Below are positions 35,602-42,246 of a stretch of 64,000 nt of DNA, piece by piece. Numbering within the stretch: the stretch's first letter is position 1; every line of letters begins with the position of its first letter. The stretch is from the NCBI RefSeq assembly GCF_001425305.1, contig NZ_LMEE01000002.1:189284-253283 (forward strand). The letters are read 5' to 3'. The translations under genes and the position numbers were made by a program. The DNA is from Phenylobacterium sp. Root1290 (GTDB lineage: Bacteria; Pseudomonadota; Alphaproteobacteria; Caulobacterales; Caulobacteraceae). A model generated the notes under the pieces. That model searched no databases. It saw only the letters and a program-made list of their open reading frames with translations, and was not told the DNA's origin.

Positions 35602-37137
35602 ATGAGCGCCACCGAGAGCCTGGAAATCACCGCCGCGGTGACCACCGCCCACGGCCAGGTCCGCGGCCTGCGCAAGCGCGGCGCCAGCGTCTTCAAGGGC
35701 CTGCGCTACGGCGCCGACACCGCCGGCGCGAACCGCTTTCGCCCGCCCCAGCCCGTCGCGCCATGGACCGGCGTGCAGGACGCGTTCGACTACGGTCCGC
35801 AGTCGCCGCAGATGCGCAGCCCGCTCGCAGACAAGGGCCCAATGAGCGAGGACTGCCTGCGGCTGAACATCTTCACGCCTGCCGCCGACATGTCGGCCCG
35901 GCCGGTCATGGTCTGGTTCCACGGCGGCGGGTTCGAGGCCGGCTCGGGCTCGCAGAAGGTCTATGACGGAACCCGGCTCGCCCTGCGCGGCGACGTGGTC
36001 GTGGTCACCCTCAACCACCGCCTCAACGTCTTCGGCCACTGCTACCTCGGAGATCGGCTGGGCGAGGCCTACGCCCAGGCGGGCAATGTCGGCTATCTCG
36101 ACCTGATCGCCGCCCTGCGCTGGGTGCGCGACAACATCGCCGCGTTCGGGGGCGATCCCGACAACGTCACCATCTTCGGCCAGTCCGGCGGCGGCCGGAA
36201 GGTCAGCCTCTGCTACGCTGGCGAGGACGCCCGCGGCCTCTTCCAACGCGGCGTCGTCCAGAGCGGCTCGCACCTGCGCGTCCAGGCCCCTGAGGAAGCC
36301 GCGCGTCTGACCGACGCATTGCTCAAGACGCTCGACCTCGCCCCCGGCGACGCCGCTAGGCTGCTGGAGGCGCCGATGGACTCCCTCAGCGCGGCGAAGC
36401 TCAAGGTCATGCGCGACACCCGCTCGCGCTTCTCGCCGGTGCTCGACGGCCTGGCCTTCAAGGACCACCCGTTCCTGCCGAACGCGCCGGCGATCTCCAG
36501 CCATCTGCCGATGATGGTCGGGACCACCCGGACCGAGCTTTCCAACCAGCTGGGCTACGAACCAGGCGCCTTCGATCTGGACATGGCCGAGCTGCGCAAG
36601 CGCCTCGCCCGCCACGTCGGCGAGGCCGACGTCGAGGCCGCGATCGCCGAGTTCCAGGCCAGCAATCCGCAGGCCTCACCGTCCGAGCTCTACTTCCTGA
36701 TCACCTCGGCGCGCGGCTACATCCTCGACCAGACCCTGATGGCCGAGCAGCGGGTCAAGTCCGGCGCCGCTCCCACCTATGTCTACCAGCTCACCTGGCG
36801 CTCGCCGGCCGAGGACGGGCGGCGTATCAGCCAGCACACGCTCGACCTGCCGTTCATGTTCGACAACGTCGCCGCCGCCCCGCATCTGACCGGGCCGGAA
36901 ACCGACGAAACTCGCGCCCTGGCCCAGGCCATGGCCGAGACCTGGATCGCCTTCGCGCGCACCGGCGATCCGAACAACGCCGCAATTCCGGACTGGCGGC
37001 CCTACGACCTGACCACGCGTCCGATGATGCTGTTCGACGTCCCGCCGACCCTGGCGCAGGACCCCTTCGCCGGCGAGCGCGCTTTCATGAGCCGCTACCC
37101 GACCCAGCAGATGGGCCGGACGCTGCACCGCCAATAA
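35602..37137 (+). CDS. Type-B carboxylesterase, cytoplasmic copy
   Basis: This 511-residue alpha/beta hydrolase belongs to the carboxylesterase type B family and has no signal peptide. The oxyanion hole is FHGGGFEAGSGSQK. The nucleophile is Ser195 in IFGQSGGGRKVSLCYAG. The likely acid is the Glu in MVGTTRTELSNQ and the base the His in RRISQHTLDLPFMFDN. The opening TTAHGQVRGLRKRGASVFKG and LRYGADTAGANRFRPPQPV are family-typical. It pairs with an exported paralogue 15 bases downstream. Two esterases in two compartments suggest stepwise cleavage of an ester, first outside and then inside the inner membrane. Confidence 0.92.
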   Translation: MSATESLEITAAVTTAHGQVRGLRKRGASVFKGLRYGADTAGANRFRPPQPVAPWTGVQDAFDYGPQSPQMRSPLADKGPMSEDCLRLNIFTPAADMSARPVMVWFHGGGFEAGSGSQKVYDGTRLALRGDVVVVTLNHRLNVFGHCYLGDRLGEAYAQAGNVGYLDLIAALRWVRDNIAAFGGDPDNVTIFGQSGGGRKVSLCYAGEDARGLFQRGVVQSGSHLRVQAPEEAARLTDALLKTLDLAPGDAARLLEAPMDSLSAAKLKVMRDTRSRFSPVLDGLAFKDHPFLPNAPAISSHLPMMVGTTRTELSNQLGYEPGAFDLDMAELRKRLARHVGEADVEAAIAEFQASNPQASPSELYFLITSARGYILDQTLMAEQRVKSGAAPTYVYQLTWRSPAEDGRRISQHTLDLPFMFDNVAAAPHLTGPETDETRALAQAMAETWIAFARTGDPNNAAIPDWRPYDLTTRPMMLFDVPPTLAQDPFAGERAFMSRYPTQQMGRTLHRQ

Positions 37138-37152
37138 TCAGGAGGAAACGCC

Positions 37153-38757
37153 ATGACCTCAGACCGCCGACAGTTCCTCGCCGCGGGCGGCGCGGCCCTG
37201 GGCCTGGCCGCCGCCGGATCGGTGCGCGCCGCCGAGGCCGACCTGTTCCCCATCGTCGAAACCGCCGAGGGCAAGCTTCGCGGCCTGGCCAGCGGCGGCG
37301 TCAGCGTCTTCAAGGGGATCCGCTACGGCGCCGACTCCTCGGGGGCCAACCGCTTCCGCCCGCCGCAGCCGGTGCAGCCCTGGAGCGGCGTGCGCGACGC
37401 CCTCGATTACGGCAACATCTCGCCCCAGATCCCCGGCAGCCGCCGCCACGCCTATGCCGACCTGATCCTTAACGACCTCCAGCCGGGCGGCATGGGCGAG
37501 GATTGCCTGGTCCTGAACCTCTGGACCCCGGACCCGTCGCGCCGCGCCAAGCGGCCGGTCATCGTCCGCTTCCATGGCGGCGGCTTCTATGGCGGCTCCA
37601 GCAACAATCCTGGCGGCGACGGCGAGATGCTGTCGCGCTTTGGCGACTGCGTGGTCGTGACGGTCAACCACCGCCTCAGCGCGCTTGGCTATCTATACCT
37701 CGGCGAAGGCGGCGACTTCGCCGACTCCGGCGCGGCCGGCATCCAGGATCTGGTCGCCGCGCTGCAATGGGTGTCGCGCAACGTCGAGGCCTTCGGCGGC
37801 GATCCGAAACGCGTGCTGATCGTCGGCCAGTCGGGCGGCGGGGCCAAGGTCAGCCACCTGATGGGCATGCCCAGCGCCAAGGGGCTGTTCACCAGCGCCG
37901 GGGTGATGAGCGGCTCGCGCCTGACCGCCATGACCCGCGAAGAGGCCGCCCAGGCCAGCGACCTGCTGCTGGCCCAGCTTGGCCTGCGCCGCGACCAGGT
38001 CCGCGAGCTGCAGCAGGTCCCCTTCACCACCCTGCTCGCCGCCCAGGCCCAGGTCGAGGCCGCCGACCGCGCCCGCGGCGAGGCGCCTCGCTCCTTCGCG
38101 CCGGTGCTCGGCGCGGCCATCCCGCACCACCCGTTCGCGCCAGGCGCGCCGGCCGAGAGCCACGACGTCCCGCTGGTCGTCTCGACCGCCCTCGACGAGC
38201 GCACCTATCGCGAGGTGAAGTTCAACATGACCTGGGAGGAGGTCCAGCAGCGGCTCGAGAAGCGCGTCGGCAAGGACGCCCCCGCCCTGCTCTCCGCCTA
38301 TCGCGACGAAGACCCCAAGGCGACGCCCTTCATCGTCAACGCCCGCATCGTCAGCGACGGCTCCTTCCGTCTCGGCGCCGACATCATGCTGGAACGCCGG
38401 GTCGCGGCCGGCGGCGCCAAGACCTGGTCCTATCTGTGGACCAGCCCCAGCCCGGCCTTCGGCGGCCGCTACGGCGCCGTGCACGGCATCGACGTCGCCT
38501 ACTCGATGCACGACATCCGCTTCCCGCTTGCCGGCCCCACCGCCGACAATCTGCGGCTGGCCGACGAGATCGCCTCGGCCTGGGTGGCGCTGGCCGCCTC
38601 CGGCGATCCCAACAACCCCAAGACCCCGGCGTGGGCGCCCTACGACATGACCGATCGCACGACCCTGGTGTTCGGCGCGACGACGGCGGCGGTGCAGGAC
38701 CCGCGTCGCTACTTCCGCGAATACTGGGCGGCCCGCTCCGCGGCGCGGTCGGCCTGA
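37153..38757 (+). CDS. Type-B carboxylesterase with Tat signal (periplasmic copy)
   Basis: This 534-residue paralogue of the preceding esterase carries a twin-arginine signal: SDRRQFLAAGGAALGLAAAG and cleavage near VRA-AEA. It would therefore be folded in the cytoplasm and exported. The catalytic Ser227 is in LIVGQSGGGAKVSHLM, the acid Glu in STALDERTYREV and the His in GAVHGIDVAYSMHDI. The oxyanion loop is FHGGGFYGGSSNN. It lies 15 bases after the cytoplasmic copy and 5 bases before the small hydrolase gene. An AGGAGG site precedes the ATG. Confidence 0.92.
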   Translation: MTSDRRQFLAAGGAALGLAAAGSVRAAEADLFPIVETAEGKLRGLASGGVSVFKGIRYGADSSGANRFRPPQPVQPWSGVRDALDYGNISPQIPGSRRHAYADLILNDLQPGGMGEDCLVLNLWTPDPSRRAKRPVIVRFHGGGFYGGSSNNPGGDGEMLSRFGDCVVVTVNHRLSALGYLYLGEGGDFADSGAAGIQDLVAALQWVSRNVEAFGGDPKRVLIVGQSGGGAKVSHLMGMPSAKGLFTSAGVMSGSRLTAMTREEAAQASDLLLAQLGLRRDQVRELQQVPFTTLLAAQAQVEAADRARGEAPRSFAPVLGAAIPHHPFAPGAPAESHDVPLVVSTALDERTYREVKFNMTWEEVQQRLEKRVGKDAPALLSAYRDEDPKATPFIVNARIVSDGSFRLGADIMLERRVAAGGAKTWSYLWTSPSPAFGGRYGAVHGIDVAYSMHDIRFPLAGPTADNLRLADEIASAWVALAASGDPNNPKTPAWAPYDMTDRTTLVFGATTAAVQDPRRYFREYWAARSAARSA

Positions 38758-39533: not shown

Positions 39534-39538
39534 AGCTC

Positions 39539-39558
39539 ATATAAAGATATCTTTATAT
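39539..39558. promoter_or_regulatory. 20-bp perfect palindrome in the metE promoter region, probable ArsR-type (SahR/SamR-like) operator
   Basis: ATATAAAGATATCTTTATAT is a perfect palindrome, strongly AT-rich against a GC-rich background. A TTGACT -35-like hexamer follows at 39564-39569. From memory, ArsR-family regulators of methionine metabolism in alphaproteobacteria bind palindromes of this kind; I could not check the consensus. Its place just upstream of the cobalamin riboswitch of metE supports a methionine-cycle role. Confidence 0.6.
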
Positions 39559-39600
39559 CTTTATTGACTCCGCCAGCCGCCGCGCGCAACATGCTCGCGT

Positions 39601-39803
39601 CGTGGTTCCCTGGGGCGTTCGCGCTCTGGGGCTAAGATGGGAATCCGGTGCGGTCCTTTGGACCTATGCCGGAGCTGCCCCCGCAACTGTAAGCGGCGAG
39701 CCGACGTCCAATACGTGTCACTGACCCGCCGAGCTTCATCGGTGGCGGGTCGGGAAGGCCAGGACGACAGGCGCTGACCCGTGAGCCAGGAGACCTGCCC
39801 CGA
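39601..39803 (+). promoter_or_regulatory. Cobalamin (B12) riboswitch upstream of metE
   Basis: All core elements are visible in order: GGGAATCCGGTG (39639-39650), GAGCTGCCCCCGCAACTGTA (39672-39691) followed by AGCGG, and the terminal B12 box AGCCAGGAGACCTGCC (39784-39799). The 121 bases between the box and the metE ATG contain several GC-rich repeats but no T-tract terminator. Control by hiding the ribosome site is therefore more likely than transcription termination. The expected effect is repression of B12-independent methionine synthase when B12 is available. Confidence 0.95.
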
Positions 39804-39924
39804 CAGATAACGTCCTCCGGCGGGGTGTCCGGTCAGGCCGCAAGTCAGGCCTCCCGGCGCCCTGCGTCGGCGCTCGCCTGCTCGCGACTGATCGCCTCGC
39901 CATCAACAGAACTGGCAAGGCATC

Positions 39925-42246
39925 ATGACTGTCACCGTCGCCACCCTCGGCTTCCCCCGCATCGGCCCCAAGCGCGAGCTGAAGATCGCGCTCGAACGAT
40001 ATTGGGCTGGCAAGAGCGATCAGCAGGCCCTGCTCGATGTCGCCGCCGGTCTGCGCGCGAAGACCTGGGCGCGCCAGCGCGACCTGGGCGTCGACCACAT
40101 CCCGTCCAACGACTTCTCGTTCTACGATCACGTGCTGGACGCCAGCGCGATGGTCGGCGCCATTCCGGCGGTCTACGGCTGGGAGGGCGGCCCGGTCGCC
40201 CTCGACACCTACTTCGCCATGGCCCGCGGGGCGCAGGACGAGGCCGACTACGCCGACTGCGGCCATGGCCATCACCACCACGCGCTCGACGTGCCGGCGG
40301 CCGAAATGACTAAGTGGTTCGACACCAACTATCACTACCTGGTCCCCGAGATTTCGCCGGACCAGGCCTTCACCCTGGCCTCGACCAAGGCCATCGACGA
40401 GTTCCTTGAAGCCAAGGCCCAGGGCATCGTCACCCGCCCGGTGCTGCTCGGCCCGGTCACCTTCCTGAAGCTCGCCAAGTCCAAGACCGAGGGCTTCGAT
40501 CCGCGTTCGCGCATCGGCGACCTGGTCGACGTCTACGCCAAGGTCCTGAACAAGCTGGAGCAGGCCGGCGCCGCCTGGGTCCAGATCGACGAGCCCTGCC
40601 TGGTGCTCGACCTGGACGACGCCGACCGCGCCGCCCTGCATGAGACCTATCGCCTGCTCGCGCGCACCGCGCCGGGCGTGAAGCTGATGCTGACCACCTA
40701 TTTCGGCCCGCTCGACGACAATCTGGAGACCGCGCTCGCCCTGCCGGTCGCCGGCCTGCACCTCGACCTGGTGCGCGGCGCCGACCAGCTCGAACGCGTC
40801 CTCGCCAACGCCCCGGCCGGCCTTACGCTGTCGCTCGGCGTCATCGACGGCCGCAACGTCTGGCGCGCCGACCTGGAGCGCCTGCTCGTCAACCTCGAGC
40901 CGCTGCTGGCCACGAACCGCGAGATCGTGCTCGCCCCGTCCTGCTCCCTGCTCCACACCCCGATCGACCTGGCCCTGGAACGCGACCTCGACGCCGATGT
41001 CCGCGAGTGGCTCGCCTTCGCGATCCAGAAAATCGAGGAGCTGGTCGTCCTGGCCCGCGCCCTCAACGGCGGCCGCGCCGGCGTCGCCGACGCCTTGGCC
41101 GCCAGCAGCGCAGCCGCCCAGGCGCGCCGCACCTCGGCCAAGATCCACAACCCGCAGGTCGGCGCCCGTCTCGCTGCGGTCAACGCCGCCATGGCCAAGC
41201 GCTCGGCCAACTTCGGTCGCCGCCGCGCCCTGCAGATCGAACGCCTGAATCTGCCGGCCTACCCGACCACGACCATCGGCTCGTTCCCGCAGACCGAAGA
41301 GGTTCGCAAGGCCCGCGCCGACCACGACAAGGGCCGCATCAGCGACGCCGACTACGACGCCTTCCTGCGCGAGGAGACCGAACGCGCCATCCGCTGGCAG
41401 GAGGAGGTCGGCCTCGACGTCCTCGTCCACGGCGAGTTCGAGCGCAATGACATGGTCCAGTACTTCGGCGAGCAACTGGCCGGCTTCGCCTTCACCAAGT
41501 ACGCCTGGGTGCAGTCGTACGGCTCGCGCTGCGTGCGCCCGCCGATCCTCTACGGCGACGTCTCGCGCCCGGCCCCGATGACGCTCGAGTGGTGGCGCTA
41601 CGCCCAGGGCCTGACCGAGCGGCCGGTGAAGGGCATGCTCACCGGCCCGGTGACTATTCTCAACTGGTCGTTCGTCCGCGACGACGTCACCCGCGAGCGG
41701 GCCTGTCGCCAGATCGCCCTGGCCATCCGCGACGAGGTCGTCGATCTCGAAGCGGCCGGCGCCAAGGTCATCCAGATCGACGAGGCCGCCCTGCGCGAGG
41801 GCCTGCCGCTGCGCCGCCGCGACTGGGACGCCTATCTCGGCTGGGCGGTCGAGAGCTTCCGCCTGACCGCCTCGGGCGTGGCCGACCGCACCCAGATCCA
41901 CACCCACATGTGCTACTCGGAGTTCAACGACATCATCGCCGCAATCGGGGCGATGGACGCCGACGTCATCTCGATCGAGACCGCCCGCTCCAAGATGGAG
42001 CTTCTCGACGCCTTCGCCGACTACGCCTATCCGGCCGAAATCGGCCCGGGCGTCTACGACATCCACTCGCCGCGCGTGCCGACCGTCGAGGAGATGGCGC
42101 AGTTGCTCCAGGCCGCCCGGCAGCGGCTGTCCATCGGCCAGCTCTGGGTCAATCCGGACTGCGGCCTGAAGACCCGCAAGTGGCCCGAGACCAAGGCCGC
42201 GCTCGTCAACATGGTCGCGGCCGCACGCCAGGCGCGCGCCGCCTGA
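39925..42246 (+). CDS. metE: Cobalamin-independent methionine synthase
   Basis: MetE transfers the methyl group of methyltetrahydrofolate-triglutamate to homocysteine using a zinc site. The 773-residue protein has two homologous barrels. The N-terminal one starts TVATLGFPRIGPKRELK. The C-terminal one carries the zinc ligands in IQIHTHMCYSEFNDIIA-like context (HTHMCYSEF) and in VNPDCGLKTRKWPETK. A His-rich insert (ADCGHGHHHHALDV, about residues 110-125) precedes EMTKWFDTNYHYLVPE; I remember similar inserts in relatives. The gene is controlled by the cobalamin riboswitch and perhaps the upstream palindrome. A hairpin follows the stop. Confidence 0.97.
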   Translation: MTVTVATLGFPRIGPKRELKIALERYWAGKSDQQALLDVAAGLRAKTWARQRDLGVDHIPSNDFSFYDHVLDASAMVGAIPAVYGWEGGPVALDTYFAMARGAQDEADYADCGHGHHHHALDVPAAEMTKWFDTNYHYLVPEISPDQAFTLASTKAIDEFLEAKAQGIVTRPVLLGPVTFLKLAKSKTEGFDPRSRIGDLVDVYAKVLNKLEQAGAAWVQIDEPCLVLDLDDADRAALHETYRLLARTAPGVKLMLTTYFGPLDDNLETALALPVAGLHLDLVRGADQLERVLANAPAGLTLSLGVIDGRNVWRADLERLLVNLEPLLATNREIVLAPSCSLLHTPIDLALERDLDADVREWLAFAIQKIEELVVLARALNGGRAGVADALAASSAAAQARRTSAKIHNPQVGARLAAVNAAMAKRSANFGRRRALQIERLNLPAYPTTTIGSFPQTEEVRKARADHDKGRISDADYDAFLREETERAIRWQEEVGLDVLVHGEFERNDMVQYFGEQLAGFAFTKYAWVQSYGSRCVRPPILYGDVSRPAPMTLEWWRYAQGLTERPVKGMLTGPVTILNWSFVRDDVTRERACRQIALAIRDEVVDLEAAGAKVIQIDEAALREGLPLRRRDWDAYLGWAVESFRLTASGVADRTQIHTHMCYSEFNDIIAAIGAMDADVISIETARSKMELLDAFADYAYPAEIGPGVYDIHSPRVPTVEEMAQLLQAARQRLSIGQLWVNPDCGLKTRKWPETKAALVNMVAAARQARAA

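Follow-up and report, generated by a model that had tools for sequence, protein, structure and literature searches.

How metE is controlled in Phenylobacterium sp. Root1290 is a question raised by its upstream region, in which a palindrome and a cobalamin riboswitch stand before the same gene. The DNA analysed (the window) comprised 64,000 nucleotides. The reading preferred here, with a probability of roughly three in four, is that metE belongs to the SahR regulon and is additionally controlled by the riboswitch; SahR would likely act as a repressor relieved by S-adenosylhomocysteine (SAH), and B12 would block translation.

The palindrome upstream of metE

A perfect 20-bp palindrome, which an earlier note on this DNA had pointed out, was confirmed at positions 39539–39558, where the half-sites ATATAAAGAT and ATCTTTATAT adjoin. 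The complete element, ATATAAAGATATCTTTATAT, is a candidate SahR operator to which no strand was assigned. It was the only match in the window at up to three mismatches, and none of 100 shuffled sequences gave a match. At the same threshold the whole 4.26-Mb genome contained four matches, and a reversed control pattern gave none. The distance of 43 bases to the riboswitch given in the earlier note is approximately right if taken up to the conserved helix of the riboswitch near 39600, but the Rfam model already starts 27 bases past the palindrome.

A possible third half-site, ATCTTTAT (39557–39564, forward strand), lies 8 bp from a half-site of the palindrome and extends into the -35 element. 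Two of 40 metE loci, the window included, have TTAT in this position. An upstream third half-site (ATAA) at the same spacing of 8 bp was present at 16/40 metE and 15/22 sahR operators, and no third half-site at this spacing was seen at the ahcY (0/23) or metK (0/23) loci.

A SahR regulon in the Root1290 genome

All four genomic palindromes lie upstream of methyl-cycle genes, namely metE, metK, ahcY and sahR. The distances from the 16-bp operator core to the gene start used were 66 nt for metK, 69 nt for ahcY and 6 nt for sahR. SahR is a protein of 323 amino acids with an ArsR-type HTH_5 and a Methyltransf_11 domain, and the operator whose core ends 6 nt from its start codon is a putative autoregulatory site. 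The gene heads a single run on one strand consisting of sahR, metF, an ORF resembling metallo-beta-lactamases, metH1 (identified from reading the ORF) and metH2, which are probably co-transcribed. The metallo-beta-lactamase-like ORF (L015:6337–7191), located between metF and metH1, was likewise named by reading its sequence. In most loci of the family the start of sahR (L015:8117–9112 in Root1290) lies 6–8 nt past the operator core, and the sahR mRNA is therefore probably leaderless.

According to the main text of Leyn et al. 2014 (PMC4239095), the SahR regulon is characterized by a 20-bp palindrome and by the core targets sahR, ahcY, metH, metF and metK. The Root1290 system resembles this regulon of Proteobacteria in its ArsR-family regulator, in its 20-bp palindrome and in the sites at sahR, ahcY, metK and the metF/metH cluster, to which the operator upstream of metE is added; metE is also described there as SahR-controlled in a subset of genomes. 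The earlier guess that the palindrome belongs to an ArsR/SahR-type regulator was thus right. Two checks suggested along with it, for further palindromes before methionine-cycle genes and for an ArsR gene near them, gave positive answers: apart from the metE site, the genome has sites only at metK, ahcY and sahR, and sahR both carries a site and heads the metF-metH cluster. SahR homologues with 46–53% identity were present in all ten other alphaproteobacterial genomes searched.

Promoter and transcript start of metE

The -35 element TTGACT is located at 39564–39569 on the forward strand, and TTGAC was found 5–7 bp past the 16-bp operator core in all 40 Caulobacteraceae metE loci compared. A probable -10 element, CAACAT (39587–39592, forward strand), follows after a spacer of 17 bp; it matches the consensus poorly, and its assignment rests on alignment with relatives. 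No promoter was found at metE by a strict consensus scan, because the -10 is poor.

The transcription start was placed at 39599–39600 (forward strand), within the first riboswitch bases (G)TCGTGGT, by alignment to the +1 of Caulobacter crescentus metE. According to the strain-construction text of PMC6538847, the metE insert of C. crescentus extends from +1 up to the start codon. Its initial stretch, which also occurs in the btuB insert and by our reading is the vanillate promoter, is followed by the metE part, starting with TCGTGGTCTGCGG. With a start at the first riboswitch base, the palindrome would occupy about -61 to -42. This agrees with the expectation that it should lie within the promoter region, since it abuts the -35 of a promoter whose start has been published for a Caulobacter relative in that text. 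An alternative promoter in which the palindrome itself provides the -10 was rejected: ahead of the metE operator, no -35 was conserved at a constant spacing, and at most 3 of 40 loci agreed on one offset for a TTG there.

The riboswitch and the metE leader

The riboswitch that the earlier note had described as complete is indeed a full-length match to the cobalamin aptamer model RF00174 (39586–39816, forward strand; 108.3 bits, E = 3.5e-26, cut-off 31.5 bits). The gene behind it, metE, encodes the cobalamin-independent methionine synthase, a protein of 773 amino acids (39925–42246, forward strand) which contains both Pfam MetE domains, PF01717 and PF08267. Directly 5' of the start codon, GCCT (39894–39897) pairs with AGGC (39918–39921) to form a hairpin (39894–39921, forward strand) that likely sequesters the ribosome-binding site and would thus be the expression platform. 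In the 40 leaders folded, inspection by eye showed a hairpin that either covers the start codon region or lies directly 5' of it. Its arms vary yet still pair, as in the GCC/GGC stem of L184 and the GTC/GAC stem of L189, and the start-region hairpins of L021–L029 differ from those of other leaders in both sequence and place. A platform of the terminator type was dropped because a scan of the metE leader revealed no terminator-like site. In the reporter experiments described in PMC6538847, the 5' UTR of C. crescentus metE conferred a translational shut-off dependent on B12, with a K1/2 of 0.062 nM, and the layout of this UTR is near-identical in one of the family members studied here (L184).

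The genome contains only one other cobalamin riboswitch, located before an ORF for a TonB-type receptor (L110), which is most likely btuB. This corresponds to C. crescentus, where, as far as the text of PMC6538847 covers it, riboswitches are found on metE and btuB only. Elsewhere in the window, two adjoining carboxylesterase-like ORFs (35602–38757) are alike in sequence as judged by eye, probably as the result of a tandem duplication.

Conservation of operator and riboswitch

Within the genus, metE is found in a minority of genomes, 14 of the 100 drawn, that of Root1290 included. This scarcity may be likened to the loss of metE in 47% of fully sequenced Caulobacter species mentioned in PMC6538847. 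In all 13 same-genus relatives that possess metE the riboswitch was present, and the operator ended exactly 27 nt before the start of the riboswitch model. A draw from the family gave 60 genomes with metE among 299, 11 of which already belonged to the genus set, and both elements were present in all 26 new loci examined. Overall, operator and riboswitch were found together at 40/40 Caulobacteraceae metE loci checked for both (63 were found). In four further genomes (G112, G126, G146 and G161), which stand outside the riboswitch count, an operator match lies about 340–380 nt before metE. No metE without an operator was detected among the 44 examined, out of 63 genomes with metE, 40 of them examined for both elements.

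Among named alphaproteobacterial loci, 20 had a riboswitch before metE. At 17 of these an operator with up to three mismatches was present and was followed by TTGAC 4–7 bp later; one of the 17 (L032) is from Brevundimonas and hence from the same family. At L048 the operator was recognizable only as a version with five mismatches, and at L035 and L037, both from Bradyrhizobium, the riboswitch precedes metE and no operator was found. Two other loci (L056 and L064) showed neither a riboswitch at the cut-off nor an operator at up to three mismatches. L031, which begins too near metE, and L085 were left out of the riboswitch tally.

The Bradyrhizobium loci would be expected if the palindrome were a relic, or served another promoter, and the riboswitch alone controlled metE. 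We consider this explanation very improbable, since operator and promoter register are kept at 40/40 loci of the family while the flanking DNA diverges, and the metE operator has no conserved -35 upstream of it that could belong to another promoter.

The remainder of the regulon was also conserved. At up to three mismatches, sites were found at sahR in 12, at ahcY in 12 and at metK in 11 of the 13 same-genus relatives; G057 had no site at sahR or ahcY and G004 none at metK. One further same-genus site (L138), flanked by metK-like sequence, lies at the end of a contig. Across 11 genomes from other genera, operator sites precede metK (11), ahcY (10) and sahR (9); in one (G108) the site precedes metF. 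Matches with three mismatches on L132, L145, L149, L158, L168, L169 and L218, and one with two mismatches on L164, had no methyl-cycle gene match and were taken as chance. The last of these (L164:1194–1209, from G057) is a SahR-like site directly before a putative ATP-grasp-like ORF and is absent in relatives. G057 also contains a second unit of operator, TTGAC and cobalamin riboswitch (L231:199–214 and L162:1199–1457) with no metE match nearby, which is possibly the remnant of a gene loss or rearrangement.

Two operator layouts

When the loci were aligned on the 16-bp operator core, two conserved layouts became apparent, with the operator either just upstream of the -35 (metE and ahcY) or inside the core promoter (sahR and metK). 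Of the 40 metE loci, 34 have a gap of 7 bp between the end of the core and TTGAC, one a gap of 6 bp and five a gap of 5 bp. At ahcY, the distance to TTGC is 7 bp in 21 of 23 loci and 8 or 6 bp in one each. At sahR (22 loci) and metK (23 loci), the TTG of the -35 lies upstream, and the operator occupies the spacer and the -10. At ahcY and metE, bases on both sides of the 16-bp core are conserved as well.

Loci outside the family were compared as well. The ahcY layout is kept in 8 of 9 such loci, with TTG 6–7 bp past the operator, L240 being the exception. All 17 named metE loci with an operator, L032 of the same family among them, have the metE layout, with gaps of 7 bp (ten loci), 6 bp (two), 5 bp (three) and 4 bp (two). 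In the ten alphaproteobacterial genomes, inspection by eye placed the operator upstream of sahR and a TTG further upstream.

How SahR may act at metE

Repression at sahR and metK would be straightforward, by covering the core promoter. At metE simple occlusion is not obvious, because its operator is placed ahead of the -35, unlike at sahR and metK. It is conceivable that alphaproteobacterial SahR works in two ways, repressing sahR and metK through sites inside the core promoter and acting differently, perhaps as an activator, at ahcY and metE; we put this forward as a rather unlikely possibility. In its stronger form, in which SahR represses sahR and metK by covering spacer and -10 and activates, or helps the polymerase, at ahcY and metE from upstream of the -35, the proposal appears unlikely. 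In its favour, the layout split is consistent, with a 7-bp distance to the -35 at 34/40 metE and 21/23 ahcY loci, and the ahcY layout recurs beyond the family (8/9). HlyU-named activators also occur, going by their names, among the ArsR-type solved structures that match SahR. On the other hand, the spread of 4–7 bp in the -35 gap among orders is larger than usual for a rigid activator contact, and it weakens a strict helical-face contact in particular. The -35 of metE is near consensus, unlike that of many activator-dependent promoters, and SahR is described in the consulted part of PMC8877191 as a repressor. It would moreover make little metabolic sense for SAH-free SahR to activate ahcY, because ahcY should rise, not fall, once SAH frees SahR.

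The preferred reading, and the most likely one, is that SahR represses all four targets, metE, metK, ahcY and sahR, and that SAH relieves this repression. The conserved bases flanking the core at ahcY and metE suggest that SahR would reach near the sigma contact, and hindrance is thus plausible. Points against this reading are the poor -10, the failure of the consensus scan to find a promoter, the 3 of 20 named loci that lack a good operator, the sites missing in G057 and G004, and the small share of genomes (29%) in which Leyn et al. list metE under SahR.

In the proposed mechanism, a SahR dimer bound to the palindrome immediately upstream of the metE -35 would most likely hinder RNA polymerase. 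Effector work on SahR was reportedly carried out by Novichkov et al. in 2014. Rising SAH would then release SahR; passages of PMC4239095 and PMC8877191 cite work in Desulfovibrio for SAH as the ligand. The metE transcript would begin at the first riboswitch base, and with B12 bound the start-region hairpin would stay closed, leaving metE untranslated. SahR may thereby represent the total demand for homocysteine methylation, because its operator also governs the sahR-metF-metH cluster, and the riboswitch would represent the choice of synthase, MetH in the presence of B12 and MetE in its absence. The earlier idea of two control layers on metE is well supported, at the level of sequence, by the operator and the regulon-wide palindromes, the promoter register, the riboswitch and their conservation. 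The strict gate proposed with it, in which metE is made only when methionine demand and B12 lack coincide, may apply if SahR represses metE and SAH is its ligand in Root1290.

Relation to known systems

In four groups treated by Leyn et al. (PMC4239095), metE was stated to be regulated by SahR in 29% of SahR-bearing genomes. The main-text passages of that paper do not discuss the operator position relative to the promoter or the riboswitch overlap at metE; nor do they mention the layout split between metE/ahcY and sahR/metK, the supplements and the original SahR paper being outside this comparison. The C. crescentus study differs in that the UTR was placed under the vanillate promoter and not its native one, and SahR or ArsR is unmentioned in its text as far as covered (PMC6538847). 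The control of gammaproteobacterial metE by MetJ and MetR, as outlined in PMC4239095, is similar in that a single gene for methionine synthase answers to two regulators; in that case each layer is a protein, whereas Root1290 metE combines a protein operator with an RNA switch.

Operator and riboswitch are each of a known kind, and as far as the literature searches show, the new content is their conserved pairing together with the two layouts. These searches, which did not extend to most subscription papers or to RegPrecise, returned no paper describing metE under both SahR and a cobalamin riboswitch; tables of those sources may already contain the pairing implicitly.

Biological significance

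In the absence of B12, metE and btuB account for about 4.5% of protein synthesis in C. crescentus according to PMC6538847, and the setting of metE transcription would therefore have a direct fitness cost. The two operator layouts offer a test case for one ArsR-family regulator acting in more than one way. If the dual mode were true, the methyl-cycle genes would fall into two groups tuned oppositely or unequally, and the B12 riboswitch would be superimposed at metE. In bacteria able to rely on either methionine synthase, a flux signal read by a protein at the DNA level and a cofactor signal read at the RNA level may thus be combined on one gene.
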